Positions 1-30,266 of a stretch of 64,000 bases of DNA are shown here, piece by piece (the first letter of the stretch is position 1; the number at the start of each line of letters is the position of its first letter). The translations under genes and the position numbers were made by a program. The stretch is taken from the NCBI GenBank assembly GCA_018902385.1, contig JABSSW010000011.1, positions 124,001 through 188,000 on the forward strand. The letters run 5' to 3'. The notes beneath the pieces were generated by a model that searched no databases, was not told where the DNA came from, and saw only the letters and a list, made by a program, of their open reading frames with translations. The DNA is from Physcia stellaris (taxonomy: Eukaryota > Ascomycota > Lecanoromycetes > Caliciales > Physciaceae).

Positions 1-3000
1 ACATTCTTCTCGACGTATTATTGCAATAAAATTTCGATATACGATTTTATTTCGTTCGCAATTTAATTTTTCAACGTTTTATGTACAAAACGAATCAAAC
101 GTATTCGATTCAAAATGTTTCAATTGTTTTATTCATTCGAAAATCGATCAAAATGACGAATCGTTCGTCGTTGAATTAAATCATTCAAAAATTGATATCA
201 CAGCGATTACGAAAGCGACATTCGTCAAAAAAAAAATTTGAAAAAACAACGCAACAAACGTTGTAAAATCAAAAAACAACAATTCGAAATTTTTTCATTT
301 TCGAAATTGAATTCAGACGATTCGATGAATATCGCGATAATTGATGCGATTTTTTTTTTTTTCATCGATTTCAAAAATCGAAAACAAAAAATGCAATGAT
401 TTTTTCATTACGATCAATCAAATCGATTTCGTATTCAAAACATTGCGAACAAATTTTGAATCGTTGAAAATTGTCGTCATGATCAAAAAAATTTTGAAAC
501 ACGAACAAATCAAATCGATTTTTGAACGTATAATGAAAAAAATATCGAAATGATTCAAATATTTGTCAAAAATATTCGATTTTCAAAAAACAATTAAATT
601 GTCGTCGTATCGAATTTACGATCACAAAATCGAATTTTTAAACGATAACAATACGTTGTTTCGAAATCGAATATATTTTTTATTCGAATTCAAATTTCAA
701 AAATTCAAAAAATATTTGAAAAATAATTTTCAAAAAAATTTCATCGTATTCAATCAAACAACATACGTTTCGTTCGTTTTATTTGCAATCAAATCAAATG
801 ATTAATTATGTTTGTGTGTGAATTATCGACGATTTAATCACATCACGAAACGCAATCGATATTTCATTTTTCTGATCGAAAAATTCTAATTAAAATGCAA
901 AAATGTAAATATTTGATTAAGTTGAATATCATATTGATTTTTAACAAATTTCGAATGAATAAAAAAAATAAAAAATTTATCACATTCGTTATTTTCATGA
1001 AATCGTACAAATATCGAATATTATTTTTCGAATTGATCAACGAATTCGCGAATTGACAACATTACATAAACGATTTGTTGTTCAATTTTTTGAACGATTT
1101 TTGTTAAATTTATTTAAATGATATTTTCATTTACAACAAATTCAAAAAAAAACACATTGTTCACGTTCGTAAAATGTTGAAAAAATTCAAAAAAATCAAA
1201 TTACAAATGAATATTGAGAAATGCGAATTTTTCAAAAAAAAATAATTTTTTTGAGCGTCATATTATCGATGAATGATTTTCGCATGAATTCGAAAAAAAT
1301 AAAAATCATTGTCAATTGAAAACGTTTTACAAATTTGAAAAAAATGCAAATTTTCGTGAATTTCGTCAATTTTTACAGACGATTCATTCGTGATTTTTCG
1401 AAAAAAATTCGAATTTTCATTCGAATGATCAAAAAGTTTATGAATTTCGAATGAATTGTTGAAATCGAAAAAAATTTTAATTTTTTCAAAAAAACGATGA
1501 TCGAAATTTTCATATTACGACATTACGATCGAATCAAACAAATCATTTTGAAAATTGATTTTTTTGATAACGTCAATGCGAAAATACTATTTCAATACGA
1601 CGACGAAAAAATTTTGCATTTCGTTGTTTTTTATAATTGCAACATGATTTCAATCGAATGCAATTACGAAATTTATAACAAAAAATTGCTGATTATTATT
1701 CGTTGTTTAAAACATTAACGTTTTGAATTTGAAAACATTGAAAAATCGATCAAAATTTTCATCGATCACAAAAATTTGAAAATTTTCATGACGTCAAAAA
1801 AATTAATTTTTCGTCAAATTCGTTGAACAGAAATTTTTTCGAAATTCAATATTGTCATTCAATTTCAATTCGAAATTCAAAATGTTAAAACAAATGTTTT
1901 GATTCGTATGTTTGATTCACGATCAAAAAACGATATTGACGAACGACATCAATATCGAAAACAAATATTGTTTATTTCGAAACGATTCGAAATTCACGCG
2001 ATGAAAATTGACGAATTTATTTATGAACGAATTTTTGTTGTCAACAAAATTGACGATGATTGCACGATTTATTGTGAAATTATCGAATAAAATTTTCTTT
2101 CAATGAATGAAATTGATTTACGAAATTGCATTGAAAAAAACGACGTTTTGTATCGAAAAAATCGATTTTGAATGTTCGTTGATGTTTTTTTATTCGTTGA
2201 TTTTTTCAAAAAAATTTATGAATTTTTTGTTTCGAAACATTCAAATTTTAATCGCATGAAAAATTTTATACGTCGCGATTATTATTGATTTAACATGCGC
2301 AAAACGATTCGTCGATACGTACGTAATTGTTATGAATGTTAACGCACGAAAATTTTCAAAAATCGCAAAAACGATTTATTTATTTTTTTGATCATATTTT
2401 TGCAACGTTGAATCGACATATTAATGAATTTTATTATCGAATTGTTCGACGTTCACGATCATAATGTCATATGCACGATAATTGACAAATTTAACAAAAA
2501 ACGTCATTACGTGTTTTGTATCGTCGACGACGAAAATATCAATGTTGAAATCACGATTAAAATATTCATCAATTACGTATTTCGTACACATGAATTATTT
2601 TTTTCGATAACGTTTGATCGAAATTTTCAATTCATATCGTTCGTTTGACAAACATTTTGTCGAATTTTCGACATCAAATGTAAATTTTTCATCGTTTTTC
2701 ATTCAGAAATCGATGAATAAATCGAAAAAATCAATCAAAATATCGAAAAAAAATTGCGATAATTTTGCAATTACATACAAAACGATTGAAACGTTTGATT
2801 GTTCATGATCGAATTTGCAAACAACAACGCAATATTTGTAACAACAAAATTATTTTCATTTTTTATCAATAAAGATTTTCATTTTCGTATGAATTTTTCA
2901 TCAAATTTTATTTCGTATGTTACAACGAAAAAACGATTTTTGATCGTCAAAACAAAAAATATTATCGACACGATGCAAAATATTTTCAATTACGTACGAA

Positions 3001-3500
3001 ATCATGCAAAAATGATTCAAAAATTTATGACAATTCAAATCAACAAACATCGAAAAATCGTAAAATACGTCGAAAAAATTTTTGTTTTTTTCAATCGACA
3101 AAACATCAAAACGATCAAATCGTTTGACAAATTCGATGACAAAAAATTAAATTTTTACAAAATATTACAACGAATAAGCAATTCATATCGACTCGAATTG
3201 TTTGAAATTATGCATATTTACGATATGTTTCATTGTTGATTTTTGCGCAAAAATTTTCGTGATTCATTCGAAAATCAAATCAATAAATTTTTTGATTTTG
3301 TTATAATCAACGAAAATTCCGAATGAGAAATGAACGTTATTTTGAAATTTCGATATTATTACAATCGTTTTCAATATCGTGTCAATTGATCGAATTGATC
3401 GCATGATCGAATATGATATTATGTTGACAACGAAAAATTTGATAATGTTCGCGACATGATGAACGATTTTCATCGTATTTATTTCACGATTGCAAATTCA
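1..3500 (+). mobile_element. Fossil Ty3/gypsy (chromovirus) LTR retrotransposon, partial, broken
   Basis: Remains of a Ty3/gypsy LTR retrotransposon, cut by the left window edge. On the + strand, pol landmarks appear in the family order: reverse transcriptase-like sequence at about 790-1440, RNase H at about 1490-1720, integrase at about 2100-3240 and a chromodomain-like stretch at about 3270-3480, which places it among chromoviruses. What lies in 1-790 is probably the upstream part of the polyprotein, but I could not assign it. No LTR, primer-binding site or polypurine tract was recognised. The copy is broken, with dozens of interruptions, and is extremely A+T-rich. The mutations look like a fungal genome-defence process, so their number does not date the insertion. 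Family assignment rests on reading the degraded translation by eye. Confidence 0.85.
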
Positions 3501-4770
3501 AAATCGTTTAAAACGTTAATTTCAATATTTCAAAACATCGTCAACGAATCAAATTTTTCAGCGAATCGTCGTCGTTTTCGAAAAAAAATCGTCATGCTGA
3601 CATTAATCGAAATTACATTCGATTAAAATTTGAAAATTTCGAATTCAATACATTCATTTCGATTTCATTTTCGTAACGTTTTCGCAATTTCTAGTTTTCG
3701 TTATCGTTTCGATGTTATTTACAATCAAAATTTATGTCGTATGAAAAACTGAATCGTGTCAAAAACATTTTCAAAAATTGTTGTCAAATTTTATCGAATT
3801 TTGAAACAATAACGAAACATTTGAAAATGAAAAATGATAATCGTGAAATTTTTGAATTTTGCAAACATTCAAATCAATCAACAAAATTTTCAACAAATTT
3901 TTCAATTTCGAAGCAACAACGAATCGTCGAAACGACGTTCGCGAAAAAAAAAATAATGTTACGAACATGTCTGACAGATAAATTTGACAAATAAATAATT
4001 GATATGATATATGATCGAACAACGAATTATGTTTTAATTTTACGTTGAAATTAACGTGATTTGAAATTTGACGTCGCATATTGTTTGCAATTTCAATATT
4101 TTGTATTTATTTGTTTTTGCAAACTTATTGTTTTCGTCTAGTTAATCAATAATACGTTTATTCAAGCACGATTCATGATAAAATTCGATTGCGAATTCGT
4201 CAATTGCAAAATGATTTTCAAAACGAATGAACGAATATAATTGAAATTTGAAAACGTTCAAAGCGTTTTCGATTTTTCAAAATCATGATACATTGTTATA
4301 TGACATTTGTTGATTAAATTCAACGTTCAAATGACGTTCAATGATTTGATATCGATCGCGATTGAATAATAAATTGTTAACATTTTTTTGAAATCAAAAT
4401 GATTGAATTGTTGAATTTTTTGCACAATGCTGAATCATAAAAATGCGTATAACAATTCATTGACGTAATTTCATCATAATGAATGCATTTCAATTGATTT
4501 TCTTGATATAAATCGTTTGATTGATGTGATAAAACAATAAATCGAATATTGATTGTAAAAAAAAACAAAAACAATTGAACGAATTTTCAAAACGTCATAC
4601 AAACGTGATTCAATTGAAATGATCGATAAATAAATGTAATAAAAAATGTATAATCAAATTCAAACGTTTGAATGATTTTTTGCTGTTTCAATACAATGAA
4701 AAATCGTTTTTTCGATTTCGAAATGAAAGCGTTTGCATCGACGCGTGTTTTTTTTTTCTTTTGCACGATG
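3500..4770. repeat. A+T-rich mutated repeat sequence, unassigned
   Basis: This continues the composition and cytosine-context bias of the retroelement and ends at about 4770, where CpT and CpC reappear. It could be the 3' end and LTR of the same element or a second mutated repeat. Open stretches occur on both strands (for example + 3734-3994 and - 4847-4587), but neither resembles a family I can name. The minus-strand stretch crosses into unmutated flanking DNA. I saw no terminal repeats or target-site duplication. Confidence 0.6.
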
Positions 4771-5178
4771 ATTAGCTCAGATGTTGACTCAACAAATGAC
4801 ATGTTGCTTATATGATAAAATAGACTCGATTCAGACGATTCAAACAACGTCGCAATGGCCAGACTAGACGTATTATTGATGGAGTAAATGGTGGTTGCAG
4901 GTGGGGAGGGGAGATCGCGAAATAAACACGCTAAATTTCACTAATTGGATGCGGAGGGGATGTGGCGAGTGTGGATATTTTACGTGATGTCACTCGGTTT
5001 GTCTCATCTTGCATTTGTATTGAAGCCCAATAATCTCAACCATGACTGTTCCTGACCTTCACCTGGCTGCACACCTACCCGCTCCCAAATCGCTCGGGAT
5101 TTGTTTGAGGGGCACTCTCTCCAAAATCTTCACCTTGGAAACCTGAGCACGCGACCACTCGCTTCGTACCCAGTCACC
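4770..5178. other. Transition from A+T-rich block to genic DNA; SFK1 upstream region
   Basis: Base composition changes within about 100 bases. From about 4870 the sequence is mixed-composition intergenic DNA leading to the SFK1 start. No repeat end, tRNA or other insertion landmark is visible at the border. Confidence 0.5.
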
Positions 5179-6669
5179 ATGGCCCTCAAATATGCCTTTT
5201 TTTGGATATTACCCTTAATCAGTGCTTTTACATGGCTCGGTATGCGCCACACTCCCTACAACTAGAATTCTTTTCTTATTATTGATTTTATCTAGGCATG
5301 CTGCTAGCCATGTTCATCGTATGGGAATTGGAGGGATCGTAAGCGCTCAATTGCTGCCAAGGGACGGAGAACCTGGCGCACTCACACCGTCTCAGTCCAC
5401 ATTACTCTTCGATGGGGCCCAATCAAAGGATAGCGTATGTAACCTGCGAAGTTGACGATAGACCTGTACCTAACTCTCCGAAGTTATATCTCAGGTCTTC
5501 TATCTTCAGCTTTGTCATCACATACAGCACTAAACAGGTCCAGATGTCGGCGCTCAAGGTCTTAAACCGCTCTTCATCGCCGGAGCATGTGTAACCACCA
5601 TATTTCTAGACCTGGCTTTCGCATCGGAGAGGTATTTGCGGCATACAGGGCGATTAGCGAAGAACCTTAACACGACCGAGAAAGCTCTCTCCACCCTGTC
5701 AAGTAAGTTGGTCAAGTTCTTCTATGCGATTTAAGCCCAAACTGACAAAGGCAAGTTGTATTCGCGGTAGTGGGCACATGTGGTTTAATTCTGCTCTCCA
5801 TATTTGATACGGTCCATCACCCGCGTCTTCACGATGGATTCTTGCTGCTATTCATGTGGGTGGCTTTGAGCACTTTAGGAGTAAAAAATGCTAAGATTGC
5901 TACCAGGGGTGGATATGTCATCAGCGCCATTTTCGTATGCGCCGAATATCAACGGTTAGGCGTTCACTTCAGGCAGCACCGCGTCTTAAGAGTATCGTTC
6001 TGGGTCAAACTTGCTTTTATTCTTGTCGAAGGTTCGCTGCCATAACTATGCTTTTGTGGTTTTTGGCCTCTTGGCTCTGGAGCTACAATCTGCTGACACG
6101 AATCTGAAATCCCAAAGTCGCCCTAGGCGTTGTCTTCGCGGTAACGACTTTTACCAAGCACCAGAATGTCGCAGCGATCTTTGAATGGGTTATAGCTCTG
6201 ATCTTCACCTGCTACGTCCTCACCTATTTTGTCGACCTTCTTCCTGCATGGCATGCCAAACAACAAGTCTCGAATTTGGAAATGGGCCATTACGATGGGG
6301 CTGACGATCATAATGGCACAAATTATGCCGACTACAGGGGGCAATATGAAGCACAAGGTCCAGCAGCCGTGGCGCAGCCCGTGCTCCCAGCTACTGAACA
6401 CGCTACTAGCACGATGACAAGCACCCTCACCAGTTTTACGAACGGTAGTGCTGGGTATCCACGCACAGGTAATGGGGTGGCCGTTGAGCATGCGGGGCGA
6501 GGCCATGATAAAGTAGAGCAATCGCGGAACTTTTGATCCGGTTTGATCAGGATGAGAATTCATTGCAGGCGTTAATCGGGTCGTCGCGGCCGATGATGGG
6601 GAGGACACCGCTGGTCTGATGATGCACCGAATGACTGGCGATCCTACGACCGCGACCGCCCAGAAGTAG
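5179..6669 (+). CDS. SFK1: Sfk1/DRAM/Frag1-family plasma membrane protein
   Basis: Multi-pass membrane protein of the DRAM/TMEM150/Sfk1 family. Yeast Sfk1 works with the Stt4 phosphatidylinositol 4-kinase at the plasma membrane and affects lipid asymmetry. The start at 5179 opens with a hydrophobic segment (MALKYAFFWILPLISAFTWL). Family landmarks follow across several exons: GAQGLKPLFIAGACVTT, LDLAFASERYLRH, HDGFLLLF, CAEYQRLG and HRVLRVSFWVKL, then further transmembrane segments and the WVIALIFTCYVL block. The cytosolic tail is hydrophilic and Thr/Ser-rich. A last intron at about 6470-6569 leads to a short terminal exon with its stop at 6667-6669. The exact borders of the intron between about 5450 and 5540 are uncertain. 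The partner kinase STT4 lies 13 kb downstream in this window, probably by chance. Confidence 0.85.
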
Positions 6670-7183
6670 TCCTAATGCTTATTCTTATGCTGATTTTGTT
6701 ATTCAAGCGAAATTCATGGTAAAGATGAGGCAGTCTGACTACGTCGCACCGAGGCTTACCTATGAAACCGTCCGCAAAGGAGATGAGATGTTACTAACCA
6801 CTGATATCGAAATGCGGACGCCTCACTTCTTACCAAAGCCCAACTACACATAGACATCCAACCCCTGAGTAAGAAGCTTTGAGCATCATGATTAGCCTTG
6901 ACCTCGATGCGCTATCGGCCTTGATATATATCAGTTAATTTTGCATGTCATCTCCGTGGCAAAGACCGCTCGTATCCGTTGATCTACCATTTATTACCAG
7001 TTGATACGGTCAATAGCTAAAGAAAGTAAGATACATATTGCTGCAAATCCACATCAGAGAAAATTGAGATATTGATTGGCAACAAAACAAACAAGAAAAC
7101 GCACTTTACAAGCAGAAACAGCATCGATCCCTATCTGCGTCCGGGATTGCACGTCCCATCCACCACACGGGGCATTGTGCAGC
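6670..7183. other. Convergent intergenic region SFK1/EIS1
   Basis: 514 bases between two converging genes, presumably holding both 3' UTRs. I see no coding sequence or repeat. Confidence 0.5.
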
Positions 7184-10100
7184 TTACAAAACCTCATGGA
7201 ACTTACTATCCCTAGCGGGACTGTCGTTTCCCCTCCCCGCAGCTCCCTCCCCCACGCTCCTCGGCGGCGGCAGCGCCTCACTATCAAAAGTATCCCTCGC
7301 CTCCTCGAACTCCTCTTCTTCCTCCACCTCTGTGCTCTCCCGCCCAAGATTCCTTCCCGTCCCAGTAGCAGCAGGCACGCTCGCGACGCCTTCTGGTCCC
7401 TCAGCAGCCGCAGCGCACTGCAGTGGCTGACCCCTGAGAGTGCCCTTAAGGTTGTGCGTCATAGGGGCTGGCTCCCGCGGAAGTCTATTCCGGCCACGCA
7501 CGTCGTCAATATCCTCATCGCTGGAGAGCGAAGAGATAGAGGAGGAGGAGAGGCTGCGTCGTGGTTTGCCGGCCGGGGAAACCTCGTAATGATCGTCATC
7601 GGCTGCTACATCAATAATGTTGCCACTGACCGGAGCAGCAGCAGCGGTAGCGCCCTCGGATTTAGCCATGGCGACTTCGCGCTCCGAGTCGGCGGTTGCG
7701 CTGCGGTTAACGCTATTGTTGCTTGCTCCGGTAAGGGTGGCGCCGCCGATGAAGCCCTTCTCAGAAAGAGGTTCGGCTGGGGAGGGCTCGCTGATTTCGG
7801 GTTTTGCAGGTTTGCTAGAGCGGCGAGCGAATTTGGTCTTGAGCCAGGATGACACCTTGCCTTCGGATTTGCCGTCTTTCTCTTTAGGAGCGGTTTTGGA
7901 CGTTGCTGCTGAAGATGTACCGGCCGTCACGGTAGTCTTGGTTGATGGGGGCTCTGGAGCAGCTTTTGCCGTTGAAGCTACGGGGATAGAAGGCGCAATG
8001 CGGCTTGCAACAGGTTCACCGTGCTTGGCAGGTGAGTCTGAGGAAGACTGGGTGGCAGCTGGAGCAATGGCGTCTGGTTCTGCTGATTTCCCTTCAGCAC
8101 CTGTTGCCGTTTCTGTTGTAGTCGGTACTGTAGGTGACATCAGCCCTCCGTATGTTGGCTCATCAACAACAGAGGCTGAAAAAACACGCTGGGCTATCAT
8201 CTCGGCATTCAGAGATGGAGACTGGCCAGGCACGTCTTCCGCTGTTTCCACTGATTTATTAGAAGTCATGGGTTCCTCGGTAGTTGGGGAGATAGGCGTT
8301 GGGTCGACTGCTGGAATAGGTCCCGGAGTGGCTTTATCTTGCGTAGTATCTGCTTCGATTACTGCCTCATCTACAGAAATAGGGCCAACCTTTGGAATTG
8401 GATCAAGGGCTGGTGGCTCCGAATCAACTCCAGATTCAGCTCCCTCGACATCCACAACATCTGCTGACCCGTGGTCTTCTTGCCTCATGCGTTTCTGCTC
8501 AGCCTTCTTGGCTTTCTCCTCTTCCTTCTTTGCCTTCGCCTCCCGCTTTTCTTCATCTACGCTCTGTCAGCAAGCGCTCACGTAACAGTAGAATCAATCG
8601 AATACCTCTAAAGCGCTTCCATTCTCCTTTGGTCATCTGGTCACGCAGCTTCTGGTCCGCAATCTTGTCAGCAGCAAGCCGTTCGCGCTCCTCACGCTCG
8701 GCACGTATGCGCTCATCTCTAGCTCTGTGCTCCTCGGCTTTCGCGGTGATCTGATCAATCGTAGGCTGCACTCTGGCGGTAGCAATCGCATCAACTTCGG
8801 ACTGGTCCAGATATTTCCCTCCACCTATATTCACTTTACCATGGTTCGTCATTCTCGATTTGCTTTCAGCTTCTGCCTTGAGTTTCGCTTTTGCCTCCCA
8901 CTCCTCCATCATAGCTGGGGATGCTTTCCCGGTTTCTGAGAATACCCGTTCATCCATCCCATGCATACTTGCTCTGACGTTCCTCTGAGCGGCTGCCATG
9001 AGAGCCTCCCTATCTGATTGACGCTTCTTCGCGTCGACTTGTGCCAATCTATCTTGGAAAGATGACATTTCGGACCGGATCTGTTTGGAGCGTTCATCGT
9101 CACTATTGTGCTCGAGACCCCCACTGGAAGCGCGCCTTCGCTGACGACCTCGTATCGAAAGCCTTGACTGCCCTTTCGAAGTGGTAGCCCCATAATAGCT
9201 TCTATAGGCAGCGTGTTCGTCGTTTAGCTTGGCGAGTCGTTCAGCTGCCAACTTTTGCGCAGCTTCCTGAAGGTTCACATACTGTCCGACTCCTGGGTGC
9301 GACTCCTCGCTAGAAGCAACCGAGCCAGGCCGATTGTGAACGCTCGTCGCAGCGTAATGGCTATCTGACCTCTGACTTGTAGCTGCTTGGTCAATAGCTT
9401 TCTGCTGAACGGCATACATCTGCTTCGCCATCGATACTGCTGCAGCACGCAGGCCTGCCTGCCTGTTCTTCTCCTCGACTTCTGGAGCAACTGGTGGATG
9501 AGATGTATACATCTCTCTAGATAAATTGGTGACCGCTGCGTCATGGATCCTCTTGGCGTCTAACGGTGGTGCTGTAGGTAGAGGTGACGCTTGCGGCGCT
9601 CGCTTCGACTGTCGGTTGGCGATGTTGGCAGCTCCGAGTGCGTTTGTCGCGGCATTCTCCGAGTCGGGATACTGACCTCTTACAATAGGAGATGAGCCTG
9701 ATCTTTTTCTACTGCCAGCTATTGCGCCCGTGGCTGCAAGCAAAGCCTTCTTTTCTCCTTCCTGAGTAACCCCATAATCCACACTTGGACTCAGCCCTTT
9801 CTTTCTCATAGCTTGACCTGCCGCAGAGTTGCCCGCATCAGTAGTTTCCGGTCTCCAGACTTCCACATGGCCTCCATCCTTCTGAGCAAGGAGTGCAGCT
9901 TTGGAGCCGGCGGCGCTCAATTCTGGATGCCATAGTGGGGCGGGTTTATAATCTTTTGCGAGCATTGCAGCCTTACTCGCAGGCCCTGAGGCTTCGGGGT
10001 GCCAGTGCTCAAAGTCTCTGTGATTAGCGTTGGCAAGGCTGGCTGCCGCTCCAGCTGAAGATTGGATGTTTGGGATGCCCAGAGTGGGATATGCCGGGAG

Positions 10101-10385
10101 ATCGTGTGGCTCTGCATGTTTAAGGGACGTAGCAGCACCTGCGAGATGAGATAAACAAGCGTCTGGACCATGGGTTTCAATGGCTACTTACTTGCTGAGG
10201 ACAGTTTGTTGTCCGCGTCGAGAGGATAATTGTTCGGGGCTTTGGACTTCTTCTGCTGGCCTCGTGTGACGTACAGCGCAGCAGTGGCAGCTTTCACATA
10301 TCAGTCGAGTTGTTCAACCGATTGTACACATCTGCCAGATGTCTCTACCTTGATCCTCAAGCTTCTGTGGCTTGCTTGAAGCCAT
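7184..10385 (-). CDS. EIS1: Eisosome protein 1 (Eis1-like)
   Basis: Long, mostly disordered and coiled-coil protein of the Eis1 family, which associates with eisosomes, the furrow-like domains under the fungal plasma membrane. The start at 10385 (MASSKPQKLEDQ) is followed by two small exons. The N-terminal half carries the family's repeated motif in which a short Ala/Ser stretch is followed by a W-H/R-P-E block: FEHWHPEASG, APLWHPELSAAGSKAALLA and VEVWRPETTDAG. A charged coiled-coil region rich in RAREERIRAEREERERLA-type sequence precedes an intron at about 8498-8553, and an acidic Ser/Pro/Thr-rich C-terminus ends at 7184. About 1,000 residues, within the family range. Long plus-strand open frames opposite it (7617-8585, for example) are shadows of this biased sequence. 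Confidence 0.85.
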
Positions 10386-11044
10386 TATTCGCACTCTACC
10401 CCGCGGCTGCGCTCTTGCGAGTGCTGTGGACTCTAAAGATGGTAGTCACAGTCTGTTGACTTTCCTGGAACACAGTGGACACAAAGGAATGTGGACGTAT
10501 CAGAAAGAGAGGTGCATCATATTCATGGGTGAAGTCGCCAACGAAGGGTCTGTCGCTTCAAGTGCAGTTTGACGTCAACGGCGCAGTCTGGTTTGCGCGA
10601 TCTTGTGCTCGCCTCACAATCCTACTGAACCAGCATTTATTAATTTCTTCCTGCGCTGAAAATCTTATTATCATTGCATGTCGAGCGATGCTCGAGCTAG
10701 ATCTGCTACCCATCACAATAAAGTGACTGCGATCCTACACACTGCCACAGAACCCCATTACCATCCATAGTAGGAATGAATATCCCTGCTCCGTTCTGAT
10801 GTTTGAACCAGATCTAGCGTTCTATCTAGTCACTGATCTTCAAGTATTTTCTGTCATCTTCCACTATGATTGTTGGTTCTGCTCTATGAAAGCATGCTCC
10901 CACGGAACGTATCTTTGGGGTTTCAAGACACCCTCAGTGTTATAGAGTAGAGTTCTTTTAAAGTGTACTACTATTTCACCGTTTTCCTTGACACTTTTCT
11001 TCGAGAATAAAGGGAACAAATTACAAAACTGTTCTCTCTCCGTA
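10386..11044. other. Divergent promoter region EIS1/phosphatase
   Basis: 659 bases between divergently transcribed genes. It should hold both promoters and 5' UTRs. Short open frames here have no family resemblance. Confidence 0.5.
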
Positions 11045-12254
11045 ATGGCTTCTCAACAAGATATCGATATCGTCGAGCCCAGTCCCTTCAAGAGCCTTCT
11101 CAATTTCAGAGATGTTGGTCGAACGGTAAATCGCCTTCAAAGCAAGATGCAAGTCTCTCCTAAGACAATAGTAAAGCCAATGTTATTGGGACAAGAAGCT
11201 TACAATTTACACAGTACCCTCCGTGAGGGCAAACTTTACCGCAGCGCCAGGGCAGGTAGTCGAGTAAAGATGGCCTACTACGTACTAGAGGCTGACTGGA
11301 AAAGCCCGATGAAGTGTCAACTCTCGATATCGATCCTCTACTAAATCAGTACAAAATCCGCAGTATCATTGATCTACGTTCAAAGTATGGCCTTTTCCCT
11401 CTTGTCAACATTTCACCTTTACTGACCAAGTCACTGAATATAGGACAGAGCATGTGCAAAAGGAGAAAAAGCACGGCTTGTCAAATTCGTCAATCTACAC
11501 TACCGAGATCGTTGGTATAGACTACAACTACGTGTCTCTTAATGGATCAGCTTTTGAGGTAGGTTATTCTCCCATGACTTTCTGCCTCTCCTTGCCTGTC
11601 AACCCTCATGGCATGATCGAGGAGGTCTTATGAAGGAGGGTCTTTGCTACATCTTGAACGGTGATCTGGGCGCGCAACCACTGACTTCAGCATCACTAAC
11701 AGCGTGCTCTCCTCAAACGACTCAAATACACGAGTCTCATCAAACTTCTTTCCCTAATGGCATTCGGGTACCGTGTAGAGGCAATTGCAATCATTGGCGC
11801 CGAGGTCATGCAACCCCGAGGTTTGACAGGTCTTGCATTCGACACTCTCGCCACCAGCACGGCGGAGATTTTGTCAATCTTCCGCTTGCTTGCTGACGAG
11901 GAGGGATATCCCGTGATGATTCATTGTACGCAGGGGAAAGATAGAACCGGCCTAGTCGTGCTACTTCTGTTACTCATGCTGGAGGTCCCTATTTCGGCTA
12001 TCGAGGCTGATTACCAGGCTAGCGAAAGGGAGCTCCAAGTGGAGCTGGAGGAGAGGATAGGGGAGCTTCGGAAGGGAGGTCTGGAAGCCGAATTTGCTGA
12101 GTGTCCCGCTGGGTTTGTAAAGGCAGTGGTTACGGAGATTGAGGAAAAGTATGGTGGCATCAACAAATATTTGATTGAGAAGGTGGGTGTTGATGAGGAC
12201 CTTCGTCGTCGACTCGTCTCGACACTCGCTGGGTCTAAAAGTGCAATTTCTTAA
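11045..12254 (+). CDS. Tyrosine/serine protein phosphatase family (Y_phosphatase3-like)
   Basis: Cys-dependent protein phosphatase of the fungal tyrosine/serine phosphatase family (PF13350-like). The last exon holds the P-loop signature HCTQGKDRTG, with the nucleophilic Cys and the GKDRTG loop. Upstream blocks LLNFRDVGRTVN, GKLYRSAR, PDEVSTLDID and KIRSIIDLRSK match the N-terminal part of the family. The start at 11045 (MASQQDIDIVEPSPF) is a standard ATG. About 310 residues in four or five exons. The junction after GKLYRSAR is odd: the family's RPDE motif is kept only if the intron begins with GC rather than GT (donor near 11249); the GT alternative four bases downstream loses the motif or the frame. 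The substrate cannot be told; phosphoprotein or phosphoinositide are both possible. Confidence 0.8.
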
Positions 12255-13063
12255 GATGAAGTCACAAAGCGAAGTTCGAGGAAACGATATCTAATGGAAG
12301 AATGATAGTCTCTTGCTGTGAATTTTGTTGTTGACTGAACGCTTGATCTGTCTTTGATTTGCTATTGTGGTCTTTGCGACTCTCTGACATGTTCTCCAAG
12401 CTGTATTACATTCTAGGAATGATCTGTCATGGAAAAAAATTCAAACACCAGGCAATCTCAACAATAGTATTGATAATAACAGCGGTCAGAGTTGACGAAT
12501 CCCCGACGATGTGCACCGAGCGATGCTCATTGAATTTTGCACCGTCAACGCACTGTGGAAGGTTCGTCAACTCTGAGTGCTACTCATAGCTATGAATGAT
12601 ATCGCATGATGAATGGCGCCTCTACCAGCAACACAAGGTCTGAACAGAAACCCAAAGGCAACGTCTTTGAGAGAGCGGCCTCATGACCCATTTGTGCTGG
12701 AGAATGTCTGGTTGAACCGAAGACCGCCGTAGGCAAGGCCACTCAAGCCGTATACAAGCAACACATAATTGCCAGTAATCGGGAAAACATCCATGATGTT
12801 CTAGAGAAGCACTCAAGCGTGAGCCAAGCAAAATTCAAGACGGATTGAAGGGCATCGAACATGCCATGGCAGGGGATTCCTGAGTCAAATACCGTAGCAG
12901 TGCTCTACAAAGGGAAACATGATGCACGAGAATTGAATGAGCCAATACACTATCAGTAGTGGAATCCGACATCAGCAATCCACATAAAGATGATCGAACG
13001 CGTAATTGCAAGTCTACTATATCTATTATTCTGACCCTATGAGATCCTGTACTAGGACTTACC
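12255..13063. other. Convergent intergenic region
   Basis: 809 bases between the phosphatase and the minus-strand disordered-protein gene, and long for this window. A strong donor (GTAAGT) lies just after the stop of the minus-strand gene at about 13057, so part may be a spliced 3' UTR. No family resemblance in its short open frames. Confidence 0.45.
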
Positions 13064-14323
13064 CTATCGCTGATCCCTCCTCTGTCGATTGATTGGGCTT
13101 TGCGGCTCAACCCGCACACCATAACCCCGACCATAAGGTACTACATCGACTTGCACGCCATCATCCTCGGAGTCTCCACTTTCATAGTCGCTCTCCATAG
13201 CCTCCGCTTGCTGTCCACCTCGATACTCTCTATGGAGCAGCGAAGGCTCGGAAGACGCAGCATATGGCTGTTGAGCTGGGTACGCCGCTCTCCGCTGCAC
13301 GTCGGGGTAAAGTACATCGGGTGGGCCTGACACAATCCTACGATTCTGTGTATGTTGAGGTGGCATCTGAGGGACGGACGGCGAGTACTGTTGGTACTGA
13401 TACGGATCTGTAACGTATGGGTGATAGGAAGACGCCGAACGAGGACGGGGACTCCAACTTGGATCGTCAGGAAGACGGCGTGATGGATCAGACATGTCAG
13501 ATGGAGGCGACTGTCGTGCTGAGCCAATACCAGAAGAGTTGCGCTTGGTTTTATCTCGAGGCTTTGTATAATGAGGCACATTTGGAGCTTTACGACGTAG
13601 GGGAGAAGAAATTCGTGAACTCGAATTCGGGCGTGGATCCTCTGAAAAGTCGGCTGATGGATAATACCCAAATGGCGCATGTGATAATACGTCTTGACCC
13701 GGCAGGAGTAGACCTGGAGGGGCAGCCGTATATTTGGCGCTCAAAGCATCCCCTCGGTCATGGCGAGGTAGAGAGCTTTTCCTAACTTCGTTCCCGGACT
13801 TTTGTTCCCTGAGTGCTGGGCTAGATGTGCCACTGCTTTGGCGCTTGTCAGCAAGCCGTAGATTTACCCCGGATGTTCTGCGTTTGGACTGGTCTCTTCT
13901 CCTCTTCCTTTCCAAAGCATCCAGCTCGGGTTGTGATAATTTGACGTTGGTCTTTCCCAGAGCTTGGGCACGGCGTATGCGCTCCAACGCCTTCTGAACA
14001 AGGAGGTCTTCCTTATCCTTTAATGCCAGTTGCATCGTCCCTCCCGAAGTTTCTGAAACCACGGGATAGTTCTCGTCCGAAGTATCCGAATCATCTTCAT
14101 AGACCTGTCTCTGCCGAGTTCGCATGTGAGCTCCAAGATCGGCGCCAGTGAATCTCAACTCGTCACTAGCAAAAGAGCTTTCCACATTAACCCCTTGTCC
14201 GTCGTCACTATCGCTATCTATTTCCTCGAAACGTAAGGCTTCCTCTTTTTGTTGCGTATATACACCTCGGTCTTTGCGCCTCTTCGCCTGCCGAGCCCCT
14301 GATGGTCTTCCCCATGAGGGCAA
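13064..14323 (-). CDS. Conserved disordered protein, start codon not found
   Basis: About 420 codons of clean open frame. The N-terminal region is basic and then acidic (KRRKDRGVY, FEEIDSDSDDGQG, SSFASDELRFTGADLGAH), followed by a Lys/Arg/Ser-rich middle, a Pro/Tyr/Gln-rich part (YQYQQYSPSVPQMPPQ) and an acidic patch before a basic end. I recall similar disordered proteins in other Pezizomycotina but know no function. The frame opens at a TTG; the first in-frame ATG is some 66 codons further in (AHMRTRQRQ), past the motif-like N-terminus. Upstream the same frame runs into the 3' end of the PRA1 coding region, where an in-frame stop closes it. Either an upstream exon overlaps PRA1, or the start is internal or non-ATG. 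Coordinates mark the open frame only. Confidence 0.55.
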   Translation of the reverse strand: MPSWGRPSGARQAKRRKDRGVYTQQKEEALRFEEIDSDSDDGQGVNVESSFASDELRFTGADLGAHMRTRQRQVYEDDSDTSDENYPVVSETSGGTMQLALKDKEDLLVQKALERIRRAQALGKTNVKLSQPELDALERKRRRDQSKRRTSGVNLRLADKRQSSGTSSPALREQKSGNEVRKSSLPRHDRGDALSAKYTAAPPGLLLPGQDVLSHAPFGYYPSADFSEDPRPNSSSRISSPLRRKAPNVPHYTKPRDKTKRNSSGIGSARQSPPSDMSDPSRRLPDDPSWSPRPRSASSYHPYVTDPYQYQQYSPSVPQMPPQHTQNRRIVSGPPDVLYPDVQRRAAYPAQQPYAASSEPSLLHREYRGGQQAEAMESDYESGDSEDDGVQVDVVPYGRGYGVRVEPQSPINRQRRDQR

Positions 14324-14349
14324 GTCGTACGGAGTTCGCGGCCGACCAC

Positions 14350-14880
14350 CTAGACCGCCTCCTCGGAAAAAGCTGTATCAATCGGTTTATCCATGAAAGA
14401 AGCGTGGCCCAATATGGTCACGCCAGTTGCACCAACCAACCATAGAGCCGTTGATATTGGCGAGGCCCATATAAATAGAGGCACCGTTATTATGAGTAAA
14501 GCTGTATAGAGCTGGGAAGTAGTAGCGCGAGTAAAGCCGAGCTCCAAGTCACGACCTTCAAGTTTCTTGATACCAAAAAGACCCACGCCGAGGAAAATGA
14601 TATCGAACAACAGTGTAAGATTGGTGAGCAAACTGTATATGGCCAACATGACAGCTACCGCAGCGTAGTTGCTTGAAAAATAGCTTAAATTATAATTGAC
14701 CCTACTCTGTACTTCTCCAAAATTCGCTGGCTTGGAAAGTCGTTTGAAGTCAAGAAATTCGGAAATGGGCTTCAGGTTGGCGAAGCGTGTGCTTATCGAT
14801 TGGGAACGTACACCTTCGAAACGAGAACCTAGGTTGAGTCGGGACGTCAGAGCGTCAAGCGGGATCTGGATGCGTGCCAT
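14350..14880 (-). CDS. PRA1-family protein (Yip3-like)
   Basis: Single-exon 176-residue prenylated Rab acceptor family protein, normally found in Golgi/ER membranes, where it binds prenylated Rab GTPases and may help place them on membranes. The start at 14880 (MARIQIPLDALTSRLNL) is a standard ATG. The central FGEVQSRVNYNLSYFSSNY block and two pairs of hydrophobic segments (AVAVMLAIYSLLTNLTLLFD, then QLYTALLIITVPLFIWAS and TALWLVGATGVTILGHA) match the family. The tail FMDKPIDTAFSEEAV also fits, so the stop at 14350 is credible. It lies 26 bases before the open frame of the next minus-strand gene, which has no ATG of its own. Confidence 0.9.
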   Translation of the reverse strand: MARIQIPLDALTSRLNLGSRFEGVRSQSISTRFANLKPISEFLDFKRLSKPANFGEVQSRVNYNLSYFSSNYAAVAVMLAIYSLLTNLTLLFDIIFLGVGLFGIKKLEGRDLELGFTRATTSQLYTALLIITVPLFIWASPISTALWLVGATGVTILGHASFMDKPIDTAFSEEAV

Positions 14881-15629
14881 CGCAGAGCGAGGGTAGCTGA
14901 GCTGCTCTGGAATATTTTGTTAATATCTCGCTTTGGGCGAGGGAGCGAGATCTGTGAAGGACACGGTTGATTTAGGGGCTAGATCGGTGTTGCGTATCGA
15001 CTTGAGTAGGATGCTGTGTTGCTGGGATGGTGAGAAAGGGGCAAAATTGTTGAGAAGAGAGTGCTGTAAGCGGAGAATTATTTTTGAAGGTGCTTTACGG
15101 GTACCTGACCGAATTTGGTGTGGCCGGAAGTTGACAAGGACAGAGTGGCTTAGATAGCGCAGTCCCGGCTGGGCCGAGCAGTGCTGATAATAGCAAAACC
15201 GCCATTCCTCGGTGGATGTCTGGATGATGACAGCTTTCGAAGATAGGGAAGGAAGAAATTGAAAAGGTTGCTTTGACTCGAAATGCTAGTGTGAAATAAT
15301 CCGGTTGTTCCCCTCGTTGAGCCAATGGAAGTCTCCGGAACACGTAGACGACGCGTTCCCCTTCCAAGTGATGCCGTCAAACTAGGTACCTATAGAGCAT
15401 TGCATTTTGATCGTAGAACGGAACTATGGCCTATGCAAATAAAAGTTCCAGAGTCCTTCAGTGTTACATTACCCCTTCGATTTTAATTCATTCATCAAGT
15501 GATCCAGGTTCATCAGGCTTCAGGTTTTGCGGCCCGTCAGCCGCCAATTCTAACCAAAGCCGTTACTAGAGTAGGTAAATTATTTTGTAGCCGCACAATT
15601 GCACACGTAACATCTAGTGATAAAGAGCC
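14881..15629. other. Divergent promoter region PRA1/ERJ5
   Basis: 749 bases between divergent genes, expected to hold both promoters. No coding sequence, RNA gene or repeat seen. Confidence 0.5.
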
Positions 15630-16849
15630 ATGAGAGTCGCACCCCTCTTCTTGCTGGTCTTCTCCTTCCTTTTACCTATAGCCATTAGTTGGACCCCCGC
15701 AGATCATGAGATATTCCGGCTTCGGGACGAGATTGCTGCCGCCGAAGGTCCGGAAACCACTTTCTACGATTTCGTCGGCGTAAAACCCTCGGCCTCCCAG
15801 GACGACATCAGCAAAGCGTATCGCAAAAATCACGCTTGATACATCCGGACAAAGCGAAGCAGTCGTTCATCGTCTCTCGCGCTCAGCCAACGCCGAAATC
15901 CAAGTCTGGCCACAGCAAGAAAAAGCCTGGCGTCCACGTCTCCAAACCTCCGTCGGAAAGCGAGATCCAAGCGCACGTGAAGAAAGCGAGTGAGCGCTAT
16001 GCAAGATTGGGTGTCATTGCTCAAATTCTGAAAGGGCCAGGACGCGAGCGCTATGATTTCTTCTTAGAGAACGGTTTCCCAAAGTGGCGGGGCACGGGCT
16101 ACTACTACGCTCGCTTTCGTCCTGGTCTAGGAACAGTGCTGGCTGGATTGTTTGTACTAGGCGGCGGTGGCGCACATTATGCCGCCTTATACGTGAGTTG
16201 GAAGCGTCAGCGAGAATTTGTTGAAAGATATATTCGGCACGCGCGACGCGCTGCGTGGGGCGACGAAGTTGGCATCAAGGGAATTCCAGGGGTCGATCCG
16301 GATGCTGTCCTCCCTGCGCCTGCGCCAGTCGAAGAAGAAACAGCCGCGGGCAATCCTGCCATGAATCGTCGACAAAAGCGAATGCAGGAGAAGGAAAGTA
16401 GGAAGGAAAAGGACAAGGGCGGCAGGAACAGCAAACTATCCGCTAAGCGTAGTGGAACAAATACGCCGCTCAGCGGTGTAGAAGTTGAGAGCACAGGACC
16501 GCAAGGGCCAAAGAAGAAGGTTCAAGCGGAGAACGGTAAGATGTTAATCGTAGATTCTGTGGGCAATGTTTACCTTGAAGAGGAGGACGAAAACGGAGAC
16601 AAGAGAGAGTTTTTGCTTGACCCTGAGGAGATCCCTAGGCCAACTTGGCGGCAGACCGTTTTGGTCAGGCTGCCCATATGGGTATACTCCAAGGCAAAGG
16701 GGAAGGTTCTAGGGAACGAGCATCAAGAGTCTACGCATGAGGATTCGGAAGAAGATGGCTCGGAGCAGGAAGGATTGCAGGAAACTTCCAGGAAAACCAC
16801 TATCAATGGGAACGCAAGGAAGCGTAGAAAAGCGACTGCAAGAATCTGA
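15630..16849 (+). CDS. ERJ5: ER DnaJ co-chaperone, Erj5-like
   Basis: Type I-like J-domain protein of the ER membrane; yeast Erj5 supports Kar2/BiP and ER folding capacity. The start at 15630 begins with a signal peptide (MRVAPLFLLVFSFLLPIAIS). The J domain follows (TTFYDFVGVKPSASQDDI, KAYRK), then the HPD tripeptide in LIHPDKAKQ. A transmembrane segment sits near residue 170-190 (GTVLAGLFVLGGGGAHYAAL), followed by a long charged cytosolic tail with KKK/EEED stretches. The reading frame breaks between KAYRK and LIHPDK at an A run (15825-15829); one more A would give a continuous protein of about 405 residues with the normal J-domain helix II/HPD spacing. No splice sites explain the shift. I read this as a sequencing deletion; a real mutation would destroy the J domain. 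Confidence 0.85.
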
Positions 16850-17049
16850 TACTTGGGAGGTAGATTAATTGATAAACCTCAAGCCATGAATGAAGCCATT
16901 CGCGATCGAAGGGTGCCTTTACGCCCTGGTAAGGCTTTCGTTGCGCATCCCTTAAGGGTGGTGGTGTTATTGTAGGTAGTAACCTTGGCTACCTTGCTTC
17001 GCTCCTGAAAATGCAGAACGTATTGGTTTAGCATGGACAAGTATGCTGA

Positions 17050-18818
17050 TCAAGTCTGCACAAACTCCACCATCACAGAACTGTTCTTCAGTCCCGCCTG
17101 CTCAATTGTGTCGTCGAGATGATCGATCAGGTTTTTGCTCATGCATATCAGCTCGAACTCAACCCCTTCCTTCCCTTCTAGCGGACTGGCTTTTAACCAT
17201 TCGTATATCCTTCGCACGTGCTCTGACAGTCCAAAACGGCGTACAACCCTACCATTTGGATGCCTGAATTGGATCCGAGTACTTGGGACCTCCGGTGGCG
17301 GCTCAGTATGCGGCATGGAAGATGAAATCGAAGCCAGCGGGGAATTTGAAGATCCATTTGCTTGGGTCGTGTCAGGTTGTACATCCACCATATTTGTATC
17401 TCCATGAGAGGGCCTAATATTGCTTGGGGTTTGGTGGCTTATACTCCTGGTCAGGTCATCCGGATCGCTCTCCCTTCTAGATGGCTCAGCCGGCGCCAAG
17501 CTGTTTTGCAGAGCCATCTCTAACATTTGCTCCTCCGTCATTTTCTCCACTTGAGTTTCCTTTTTGGTATCAGGTTTCCTCCTTGCTACGGGATTCTTCG
17601 CAGTGGCTTTGAGACTGTATCGGTCCAGAAATTCGTGGAGTTGCATGAGAAACTCTGAGGCTTTTGGTGCTGGCAGCCCAGACCATACCTTAAGCTGTTC
17701 GCCTGTTCTAGGATCGAGAATGGCGATGTGGGGATAGGCATCCGTGTTATCGCGCCCAGGAAAATAGTATTGTATGTACTGCCTACCCCGTGGATCATCT
17801 TTTGAATACTGCATGAAGATGAAATTCTCTTTTACAGTCTCCATTATCCCAGGGTTCTTCCAGATGTCTCGGTTTAACACTTGACAGTCGAAGATCGACG
17901 GGTCTTGGATGTTAACGAGTAGCCATTTCTCTCCGTCCTTTCCATCCCTCCTAGCTTCCTCCCATGACTGCCGGTACATGATTTCGAAAGGCGGTCGGTA
18001 CATTTCTGCAAGCATATTCGACTTAGAGGACGTTCCTGAAGCTCCAGCATTTGTTCTTGCAGGCCTTGACCGAGAGGACTCAGCGCTAGCTTCAACGTCA
18101 GTCCATATGGAGCCTGGAGCAGTCTGGTTAAAGATTCCAGGTCGTTCTAGTTGGACTGTTAGTAAGTTTCGACAGTAATAGAACGAGGAAACGAACCTCT
18201 TGATCTCGGTTGTTGCCTTGCCCGCATTTGCTCCAAAACAGCAGCTCGTATGTCATCTTCGTCATCCAAATCGTACGCGCCTGGCCCAACCAATGTCTCA
18301 GTTGTTCGTGCTATAGGTGCTCGGATACCTTCGGCATCAGTTGTCTCGGCCGCACCCGCCGCACCATAGAACTCCTCTTGGAGTCTTCTAGCCATAGCTT
18401 CATCGTCTTCTACAGGTCTAGCCTGGATGCTCGAAGGTGTGGATGCAGCTTGTGCCTGTGGTTGTGGCGCTGAGTTAGAATGTGGTTGGCGTCGTGCTGA
18501 TGCCGCCGTTGCTCTTTCATGATTCTCATCGTCGGAGAAATCCGACTCTGGTTCCGAATCCACATGAATAACCCCTCTGTTATCCTCGTAACCTTGTCTC
18601 GATCTGGACGGTCTGGTCGACGATGCTGGTATTGGCAGCGGCTGTGATGGTTGGATAGATGCTGCAGAAGGAGCGCTTTCAAGCTCTGCTCCGTCGTTGG
18701 CATAATACAGCTCGATCGCTTGCTCCAGATTTCCATCAGTCAGCGTGAGATACTGCTGAGCTCTGTCGGTTGCTGTCCCAGTGATCGCAGCGAATTGTGA
18801 AAGTGCGTCATCAGCCAT
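17050..18818 (-). CDS. UBX5: UBA-UAS-UIM-UBX protein (Ubx5/UBXN7-like)
   Basis: Adaptor of the Cdc48/p97 segregase. The start chosen is the ATG at 18818 (MADDALSQFAAITGT); the open frame continues upstream but lacks an ATG. Domains in order: N-terminal UBA-like (ATDRAQQYLTLTDGNLEQAI), a disordered acidic linker, a MARRLQEEFYG segment, an intron at about 18138-18175, then a UAS thioredoxin-like domain (NIQDPSIFDCQVLNRDIWKN to PHIAILDPRTGEQLKVWSG), a ubiquitin-interacting motif (TEEQMLEMALQNSLA) and a C-terminal UBX domain (STRIQFRHPNGRVVRRF to SSVMVEFVQT). About 575 residues. The four-part architecture is that of yeast Ubx5 and human UBXN7, which link Cdc48 to ubiquitylated substrates and cullin ligases. 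Divergently paired with STT4. Confidence 0.9.
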
Positions 18819-19370
18819 GATGGCCGCGAATGTCCAAGGTAGGGAGACAAGGTGTACGATTTCAGTACTGAAAGGAGCAGCAGCCGGCTTTGAAACATGA
18901 ATTTTAACTATGCTCAAGCATCAAATTGTAGAACATGAGCACGGAGTGGTACAACACAACGATATAGTGACAGTGAGTGAGTGAAGAGTGCAATGTCAGC
19001 TTCCTACACTTTCAGATTGCCGTGTTGATTGTAGAGTTTCCGAGGAAAGATCTGCTTAGAGGAAAGATCGATGATCAGCTTCGGAGAGAAGGTCGATGGA
19101 GGTCTTTCCTGACACTATGTAATCACATAAAAGTGAAAAATGAGCCGATAGGTAGCAGTAGGGCTGGTGACGCGTGACAGACCGATAAGTACGCGATACG
19201 GATTTTACATCATTAGCTTACCTCTATCTCCGCATCACCACATATTCACATGGAACTCAACGAATGATCACGTTCATAAGGTAAGGTATATAACGCTGTC
19301 ACCCTTCGATTCGAAAGCTTTCACCTTTGAATGGATATCTAATGCGTAGCAGTGTCGCAGAGATACCAAC
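18819..19370. other. Divergent promoter region UBX5/STT4
   Basis: 552 bases between two divergent start codons; expected to carry both promoters and leaders. No coding sequence seen. Confidence 0.5.
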
Positions 19371-25300: not shown

Positions 25301-25768
25301 GGTCATTTCCTATTTACTCCAATTCAAAGATCGACACAACGGCAACATCATGATCGACGACGCTGGCCATATCCTTCACATTGATTTTGGCTTTTGTTTT
25401 GACATTGCGCCGGGCGGTGTCCGGTTTGAACGCGCACCATTCAAATTGACAACGGAGATGGTGGCAGTGATGGGGGCAGCACTACCTCCCAGTCCTACCG
25501 TTGGTTTGAGGAGCTTTGCGTCAAGTCCTTTCTTGCGTCACGGCAGCACACAGATAAACTCTGTCACATTGTTGTTCTCATGCTGGGTAGCGGACTGCCT
25601 TGCTTCAAACCCGAAACGATTGCCCATCTTCGGCAAAGATTCGTTCTGGACAAAAGCGAAAGGGAAGCTGCAGACTTTATGAAAGATCTGGTGAAGAAGA
25701 GTTATGGCAGCTATTCCACCAAAGGCTATGACCAATTTCAGCTTCTGACGAACGGCATTCCATACTAA
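19371..25768 (+). CDS. STT4: Phosphatidylinositol 4-kinase III alpha (Stt4)
   Basis: Makes PI4P from phosphatidylinositol, mainly at the plasma membrane. The first coding exon is only 11 bases (ATG at 19371, donor at 19382). The large N-terminal region is helical-repeat-like and spans many exons; introns at about 21299-21352, 22434-22486 and 24170-24213 restore the family reading. The helical PIK domain includes EKAISEP, GPSLPLDL, YLLYWAAVNPITAVTYFLPE and VDVTFFYVPQIVQALRYDAL. The kinase domain (24,990-25,500) shows FKVGDDCRQDVLALQLI, the catalytic DRHNGN and the metal-binding DFGF, and ends with a Phe-rich tail (YDQFQLLTNGIPY). At the G run 25472-25476 the frame shifts: one more G links EMVAVMGG to STTSQSYRWFEEL as in the family. 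I see no intron there, so a one-base deletion in the assembly is likely. About 1,900 residues expected. Confidence 0.92.
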
Positions 25769-29027: not shown

Positions 29028-29476
29028 CCGTTATCCGCTGGTCTTGATGTCATACTCCTCCCTGAGGCCGTGCAGAACTGTCGTTTATTGGTACCGTTCA
29101 AGGGGTAACGTTGATTTGTAGCTTTCTTTTAGCGGCATGCTTGCAGGGGCTTCTGTACTGCATTTGGCAGCTTCCATCTATATAGTGCCTCGAATCCATC
29201 ACCTGTCTACTTTGGCGAGATCCTTGGTGTCGTGGATATGTATTAATCGGCATTACTTACTGGAGCACATCGGTCATACCAAGACACTTCTGAATGAGGA
29301 TCCTAACCCCCAACTTGTCGACGTTTGATGATTTGAGACCTCCACATAGTGCACATCTCCAGGGATGATGACGCCGCGCAATGCAATACACTCTCCCAGA
29401 TCCCATCAACGTCGCCCCCGCAACCCCCACCAGAAGCCACCAACACCAAGAACTTCTCGTCCCACCATCCAACCGC
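29028..29476. other. Convergent intergenic region kinase/YSY6
   Basis: 449 bases between two converging genes. C-rich, low-complexity sequence near 29400-29480; nothing else recognised. Confidence 0.45.
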
Positions 29477-29907: not shown

Positions 29908-30266
29908 TGTGACGGTCAGCTTGAGTAAAGGCGGGATAGGTTGTCGCGACTTGTATCGCTTCGATGTAGAGTTGGGAAGATTTGTCAAATTTACGGACTG
30001 GTGGACGAGAGATTTCGGATGGGGGAATTTTGTGAGATCGAAGAGGACAAGGGTGCCGAGTTTCTTGTTGGAGCAGAGGCGGGCTTGGCATTTTCTCTTC
30101 TCCGCATTTGAATGTTTTCTCTTCCTCAAGCCACGTAGCCATTTCGTTTAGGTTTCAGAGAAGATCTTCAATAATTTGAAAGCTATTATCAGGGATAACA
30201 TCTACGTATGGAACCATAGCCCAGCTGACTGAGTGTTCCCGCGCCTCCTGTTGCCCGTCTCGCGGC

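Follow-up and report, generated by a model that had tools for sequence, protein, structure and literature searches.

Fungal repeats are rewritten by several described systems. In Neurospora crassa, repeat-induced point mutation (RIP) changes C to T on both strands of repeats, to heavy saturation and with broken transposon frames, in a genome with RID and DIM-2 methyltransferases. The order of targets given for it is CpA > CpT > CpG > CpC, and that for Trichoderma reesei is CpA and CpG about equally, then CpT > CpC (PMC5496416; here and below, we draw on passages of the cited papers rather than on their full text). Here we describe a 64,000-nucleotide stretch of Physcia stellaris DNA, called the window in what follows (C11:124001-188000 of a 43.97-Mb assembly in 147 contigs), whose first 4,770 positions contain a truncated Ty3/Gypsy long terminal repeat (LTR) retrotransposon and part of a second repeat. 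Both have lost nearly all cytosines that precede a pyrimidine (CpY), while most of those that precede a purine (CpR) are kept. The resulting order, CpC > CpT >> CpA > CpG, nearly reverses that of Neurospora RIP, with which this locus shares all other features listed above, the methyltransferases of the genome being RID-like and DIM-2-like. An earlier reading of the window made from its letters alone (the sequence-only reading) had drawn the same contrast with classical, CpA-type RIP.

CpT, one of the two main targets here, is also a major target in Magnaporthe, Botrytis, Sclerotinia, Colletotrichum truncatum and Anisogramma anomala, and CpT>TpT is the dominant form by alignment in the RIP-capable fungi of one study (PMC7882544). 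RID/Masc1 is present here as in the CpT species of PMC4352252, a source in which all genomes with CpA or CpT signatures carry one or more class I RID/Masc1 genes, and in which one motif is unique to the RID of CpT species. However, CpC comes first here and CpA is mostly spared, whereas CpA is the other target in CpT-type RIP (PMC4352252; for A. anomala, PMC10998396), and repeat families of C. truncatum show CpA or CpT (PMC6180176). CpC is not named as a main target in the passages found on these species. The TpCpG or CpG hypermutation of Pucciniomycotina and other basidiomycetes is likewise a transposon C>T bias other than CpA, but it targets CpG (PMC4014442, PMC4352252), the dinucleotide least touched here, where the 5' base is also of minor importance. 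In Zymoseptoria tritici, the C5 methyltransferase Dim2 alters transposon composition through mitotic C>T changes; unlike here, the target is CpA, and CT sites are almost unmethylated (PMC8016269). Further species have been reported as CpA, CpA with CpT, or CpG (PMC2621366, PMC4014442, PMC4522978, PMC5555474, PMC7493409), in one further report CpC>TpT double changes accompany a CpA pattern (PMC8959702), and a survey of k-mers across 1,239 fungal genomes (2025) concluded that a preference for CpA is common to RIP-like defences (PMC12543289). In the passages found in the mostly open-access literature on RIP, Lecanoromycetes included, there was no CpC-led or CpY signature, although the term CpC occurs in PMC3017866 and PMC2973834 and an earlier description is possible. 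The sequence-only reading knew of no described fungal system with this preference. Within the passages found, a CpC-first pattern with CpA mostly spared was not described either; CpT as a leading target is already in print (PMC7882544).

Positions 1-4770 contain 311 CA and 293 CG dinucleotides but only 18 CT, 21 AG, a single CC and no GG, at a G+C content (GC) of 25.4%. Positions 4771-64000 have an ordinary composition (CC 3350, CT 4120, CA 4011, CG 3231; GC 49.5%), as had been said of the genic DNA nearby. The hand counts of the sequence-only reading were reproduced. Positions 1-300 hold 23 CA, 23 CG, 2 CT, 0 CC, 9 TG, 2 AG and 0 GG, and positions 2401-2700 hold 22 CA, 24 CG and no CT or CC; the 47th C of the latter is base 2700, which forms the 23rd CpA with the A that follows. 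Its right edge is also correct, with CT, AG and GG dense from about position 4774. What it described as one A+T-rich block was rightly called purged, but it consists of two adjoining, different repeats (13-4180 and 4181-4770), the second of which is purged as well. When all CpY/RpG in 4771-64000 were converted in silico, the dinucleotide L1 distance to the Gypsy part (13-4180) was 0.097, compared to 0.816 under a CpA rule and 0.67 for unchanged DNA. This match shows that the CpY deficit is not due to chance. The window is composed as follows:

1..12, no strand assigned: end of a neighbouring A+T-rich sequence, where the Gypsy copy is cut on its 5' side (other copies align from position 13 onward)
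13..4180, forward strand: 5'-truncated Ty3/Gypsy LTR retrotransposon copy with CpY/RpG almost wholly changed to TpY/RpA (from genome copies, unmutated relatives, the domains of the unmutated copy L034 and the substitution spectrum)
3957..4180, forward strand: 3' LTR of 224 bp (from comparison of LTRs among copies)
4181..4770, no strand assigned: part of a second repeat family, CpY-purged (from genome search and dinucleotide counts)
4771..4961, no strand assigned: last ~190 bp of the second repeat, unpurged (from the extent of the repeat in the genome search, and counts)
4962..64000, no strand assigned: gene-bearing DNA of ordinary composition without CpY deficit (from composition and domain matches)

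Both repeats are present in many copies. The Gypsy family occupies all 40 places scored among 499 candidates, including the window, and the other 39 are 84-97% identical; at least 49 individual matches were recorded. Where both LTRs are present the element measures ~6.7 kb, and its 224-bp LTRs lie ~6.5 kb apart in several copies; the window copy has no 5' LTR, which is found ~6.5 kb upstream in other copies (e.g., L018, L026 and L028). The second family (4181 to ~4961) was found in at least 40 places including the window. A reverse transcriptase (RT) search identified stop-free frames of 1024 amino acids at C5:1166521 (L034, C5:1165021-1168497) and of 1151 amino acids at C12:60312 (L035, C12:58812-62288). 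Both loci have a GC of 52-53% and belong to the family of the window copy, since many of the A+T-rich places matched by the window sequence were matched again, at 69-81% identity, when L034 served as the query. L034 contains RVT_1, RT_RNaseH and Integrase_H2C2 (RT, RNase H and integrase zinc-binding) in Ty3/Gypsy order, which together with the LTRs identifies the substrate element as Ty3/Gypsy. Its dinucleotide composition is ordinary (CC 214, CT 227, CA 197, CG 224). A CpY-poor composition native to the element, which the sequence-only reading had named as an outcome that would speak against it, is thus not seen in the unmutated family members. The L034 frame departs, by eye, from that of L035 near the end of the integrase, so we call it unmutated by the CpY process but not fully intact. 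Having unmutated family copies in the same genome allows the substitutions to be polarised. A second polarised family was not obtained: RT-bearing L033 matched only three loci at 51-56%, and L036 matched none.

We compared 20 long copies to L034, which covers ~2.75 kb of the 4.17-kb window copy, along with 1.5 kb of a further copy, located on contig C95 and matched by L034. The long copies are the surroundings of 20 of the 21 best-scoring places (C33:4359 was left out) and therefore the most window-like ones. The context counts were restricted to cells where the copy has C or T, with gaps dropped; the pooled counts and the strand and correlation analyses also dropped sites with a non-fitting next base. 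Relative to L034, the window copy has 754 C>T/G>A changes, compared to 18 transitions in the opposite direction (T>C/A>G) and 25 transversions. Mutated were 348/353 CpC, 340/356 CpT, 44/344 CpA and 22/362 CpG sites, or 688/709 CpY versus 66/706 CpR (Fisher p about 1e-289). The same contrast recurred in 20 of 20 long copies, with mutated fractions of 0.94-0.99 for CpC, 0.75-0.99 for CpT, 0.05-0.19 for CpA and 0.03-0.06 for CpG, while the control comparison of L035 to L034 gave 0.02-0.04 in all four contexts. Pooled over the 20 copies, the mutated sites included 4257/4259 CpC before a purine, a setting in which the second C is not itself part of a CpY, as well as 7783/8385 CpT, 808/8557 CpA and 252/8600 CpG. 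Decayed copies therefore differ from unmutated ones mostly by C>T/G>A in CpY, and the polarised counts confirm what had been proposed from composition: C-to-T change at CpY on both strands, with CpR spared.

The order and speed of the losses are best seen in less mutated copies. The C95 piece (1499 sites, GC 34.5%) is at an early stage, with 253 C>T/G>A, 6 reverse changes and 1 transversion; here as in the window copy, C>T/G>A changes are far above all others, as is typical of RIP. Its mutated sites amount to 159/191 CpC (93/101 before a purine), 88/192 CpT, 4/190 CpA and 2/190 CpG. CpC is thus lost first, CpT three to four times more slowly, and CpA and CpG are hardly touched. Hazards in L028, the least mutated long copy, are 4.7 for CpC before a purine, 1.4 for CpT, 0.04 for CpA and 0.02 for CpG, and the uncorrected CpC hazard is ~80 to 135 times the CpA hazard. 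Pairwise, the 20 copies (190 pairs) differ by a mean of 0.37% transversions and 4.4% transitions, while they are 24-30% different from L034. Such near-saturation of CpC with few other changes strongly argues against slow deamination as the sole cause, i.e., methylation of CpY by a DIM-2 or RID homologue followed by gradual loss of 5-methylcytosine without a dedicated mutator. That process could draw on the three C5 methyltransferase loci of this genome, has a parallel in the Dim2-promoted C>T changes at CpA in Zymoseptoria, and might explain through age why CpT saturation differs among copies. Nevertheless, CpG is spared here, and the near absence of CT methylation in Zymoseptoria (PMC8016269) offers no precedent, so we consider this explanation unlikely.

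The neighbour rule depends on the base that follows the cytosine. Mutated fractions vary hugely with that base and little with the 5' base, as they are 0.955-0.993 for ACC, CCC, GCC and TCC, and 0.060-0.122 for ACA, CCA, GCA and TCA. APOBEC/AID deaminases, in contrast, read mainly the base 5' of their target. A deaminase of this or another kind, editing single-stranded repeat intermediates in CpY context, would yield only C>T without needing methylation; LTR elements do have a complementary DNA (cDNA) phase, and such enzymes hypermutate retroelements elsewhere. Still, sensitivity to the 3' base with little 5' effect is more readily reconciled with a C5 methyltransferase than with an APOBEC-type deaminase. 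Moreover, both strands are mutated, with CpT losses on the two strands within 0.17 of each other, and the process also reached the second, different repeat and a ribosomal DNA (rDNA) copy, which has no cDNA phase. Together, these observations make a deaminase improbable. The CpT losses by strand were 0.74 versus 0.91 in L025, 0.76 and 0.86 in L026, and 0.74 and 0.77 in L028. Along the element, surviving CpT sites were unclustered, as the lowest p was 0.077 in six runs tests made by strand in three copies, and they revealed no strong wider motif. Hypermutation at TpCpG as in Pucciniomycotina was considered separately and rejected, since TCG was mutated at 101/2797 sites over the 20 copies.

The rDNA copy provides a control that is independent of any retroelement copy. 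Inside it (L040, C41:44399-47552) is the one 5.8S match obtained from the assembly when 39 candidates were scored (C41:45899-46052), and Rfam recognises the large subunit (LSU), 5.8S and part of the small subunit (SSU). At conserved positions (capitals in the Rfam consensus), this pseudogene has changed at 25/28 CpC, 16/32 CpU, 0/25 CpA and 0/28 CpG sites, or 41/60 CpY versus 0/53 CpR (Fisher p=2e-16). Over 397 positions there were 59 C>U/G>A, 2 reverse changes and 1 transversion. These counts come from ten alignment blocks, with poorly aligned LSU/SSU stretches and one LSU part left out. A normal rDNA unit was not found in the assembly and may be unassembled. Barcoding from such mutated copies would mislead.

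To describe the pattern more broadly, we sampled 28 sequences in 500-bp bins, of which 360 were A+T-rich (<34% GC), 190 G+C-normal and 8 in between. The sampled sequences mainly surround Gypsy copies and were not chosen at random; because of a ~3.2-kb overlap between L011 and L013, a few bins were counted twice. CC or GG was absent from 344 of the A+T-rich bins, occurred once in 12 and four times in one, and numbered 13-20 in the remaining three, which lie at transitions from mutated tract to ordinary DNA. CA and TG together had a minimum of 43 and a mean of 60.8 per A+T-rich bin, and none of the 360 was CpA-depleted. The CpA depletion of classical RIP, the other outcome that had been said to count against a CpY rule, is therefore not seen in the sampled A+T-rich DNA. 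The changes appear to be confined to repeats in this sample, as both parts of the block are high-copy and G+C-normal bins have no CpY deficit. Decay through CpG methylation was also rejected, with 252/8600 CpG mutated in the pooled copies and 62.4 versus 55.5 CG per thousand in A+T-rich and G+C-normal bins.

The same bins bear on the view that the block reflects classical RIP, or else the native composition of the element. RID-like and DIM-2-like genes are indeed typical of RIP-competent fungi. Yet CpA is nearly kept (60.9 versus 66.2 per thousand in A+T-rich and G+C-normal bins), and TpA is only slightly raised (56.7 versus 44.2), while a complete CpA rule applied in silico would give ~180 per thousand. 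Standard RIP indices agree, as TpA/ApT is 0.39 and (CpA+TpG)/(ApC+GpT) is 1.42 in 13-4180 (0.70 and 1.28 in the rest of the window), where RIP is indicated by values of about >0.89 and <1.03, respectively (PMC6180176). With the unmutated relatives being ordinary, we see practically no room for either version at the sampled loci. A CpY index, (CpC+GpG+CpT+ApG)/(TpC+GpA+TpT+ApA), does separate the block (0.015 in 13-4180) from its surroundings (0.895 in 4771-64000).

The coding consequences follow the same rule. TGG is the one sense codon that a CpY rule turns into a stop, so TGA is expected to predominate, while CpA-type RIP turns CAA and CAG into TAA and TAG. Among 150 RT-domain matches scored of 527 candidates, 140 contained stops, which were exclusively TGA in 112. 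Altogether these matches had 250 TGA, 33 TAA and 3 TAG stops (tallies transcribed by hand).

The mutation tract has a sharp internal edge within the second repeat, where 590 bp are purged and the following ~190 bp are spared. Positions 4181-4770 contain no CC or GG, 4 CT and 2 AG; positions 4771-4961 contain 16 GG, 11 AG and 7 CT at a GC of 41.9%. Beyond 4961, no second genome copy of the first 1.74 kb was found (searched to 6700), and the genes further along include one at 8553-9965 for an Eisosome-1 protein, as well as genes for an MDM31/32 protein and a Set1-type histone methyltransferase. An artefact of assembly or sequencing, such as bisulfite-like conversion, a reversed sequence or a contaminant contig, is hardly conceivable in this setting. 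Ordinary DNA begins within 200 bp on the same contig, with recognisable genes from 8.5 kb on, the copies lie on many contigs in graded degrees of mutation, and both strands are affected, at CpY.

As the sequence-only reading had suggested looking for RID and Dim-2 homologues, the genome was searched with the PF00145 profile. This identified three loci, two RID-like (L037, C6:789501-793500; L039, C5:496501-502500) and one DIM-2-like (L038 on C3), exon by exon, so that a much-split methyltransferase gene could have been missed. We take L037 and L039 to be RID-type (class I, RID/Masc1) based on their motifs, and L038 to be DIM-2-like on similar grounds. Catalytic motifs are present in all three. 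L037 and L039 have motif I DCFxGxGGxS, PPCQ, EET or EQT replacing the usual ENV, YGVPQNRR or YGVPQRRM, and KQIGNAVPP. L038 has an open frame of 1118 amino acids and carries DUF7893. L037 and L039 are 39% identical over 195 amino acids of the catalytic part and 34% identical over an N-terminal block of 149 amino acids, and are thus old paralogues. Breaks in their frames lie in apparent GT...AG introns (by eye), so there is no sign that the genes are broken. A scan of viral contigs found no relatives of the second RID-like protein. Searches of solved structures returned C5 methyltransferases named after bacterial enzymes, DNMT1 or DNMT2, or unspecified, and no entry named RID.

The C>T changes described above occur on both strands, are densely packed in repeats, with none seen in sampled gene-bearing DNA, approach saturation, and are fast compared to other substitutions. 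The polarisation against L034, the sampled bins and the rDNA copy all support the proposal of the sequence-only reading that RIP with altered specificity, or another pathway, hits CpY and spares CpR. We think that the block is probably the product of RIP by a RID-class enzyme with an altered 3'-neighbour specificity. Duplicated DNA would be recognised by homology before meiosis, as in Neurospora RIP. A RID-class enzyme would then attack cytosines followed by a pyrimidine, on either strand, leaving a lesion that becomes fixed as T. The catalyst may be one of the two RID/Masc1-like methyltransferases, with its 3'-base preference shifted from A to C or T. TGG codons would become TGA, breaking retroelement frames mainly at tryptophans, and repeats would end up at about 25% GC, still holding their CpG and most of their CpA.

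Several observations weigh against this interpretation. CpA, the preferred target of canonical RIP, is among the least affected contexts (808/8557, versus 4257/4259 for CpC before a purine), and since CpT-dominant patterns have been published (PMC7882544), part of the CpY rule is not new. The final ~190 bp of the second repeat (4771-4961) were spared. The 33 TAA and 3 TAG stops are not direct products of a CpY rule from sense codons. When poorly conserved positions are included, the rDNA contrast weakens to 93/115 CpC, 57/89 CpU, 12/80 CpA and 21/100 CpG. CpA loss rises in the most mutated copies, to 0.15-0.19 in some, and correlates with CpT loss (Spearman 0.77; 0.51 for CpG). This suggests that the specificity is strong but not absolute, or that there is a second, slow process: CpA might be targeted very weakly, or slight decay might accumulate with age. 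Finally, L034 and L035 coexist without C>T excess (58 C>T/G>A versus 75 reverse changes) and with selection on their frames. They are 5% apart, their compared frame (760 codons) contains 84 synonymous versus 7 nonsynonymous changes, and they look like functional lineages untouched by the mutator. The lack of C>T excess suggests that they are either recent arrivals or not currently subject to the process; either the fungus now seldom enters the stage where the process acts, or these two elements arrived recently. The two loci, 95% identical, persist unmutated in a genome where the 20 other compared copies are wrecked.

We lean towards the view that one RID-like methyltransferase evolved 3'-pyrimidine specificity, yielding a complete genome defence with a target rule almost opposite to that of Neurospora RIP. 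To our knowledge, how RID picks its target cytosine, and whether mutation runs via methylation, are open questions. A sharp, nearly inverted neighbour rule offers a direct way to map RID-type specificity by enzyme or domain swaps. The CpY rule runs against the conclusion of a common CpA preference from the survey of 1,239 genomes, as far as the passages found state it (PMC12543289). It also exposes a blind spot in index-based RIP screens, which should call the block unaffected because its indices lie outside the RIP thresholds. Since the standard indices score the block as even less affected by RIP than the remaining window sequence, similar systems could be widespread and have gone unnoticed. 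If our interpretation is true, the two RID-like paralogues would make it possible to trace the target rule of RIP to individual residues.

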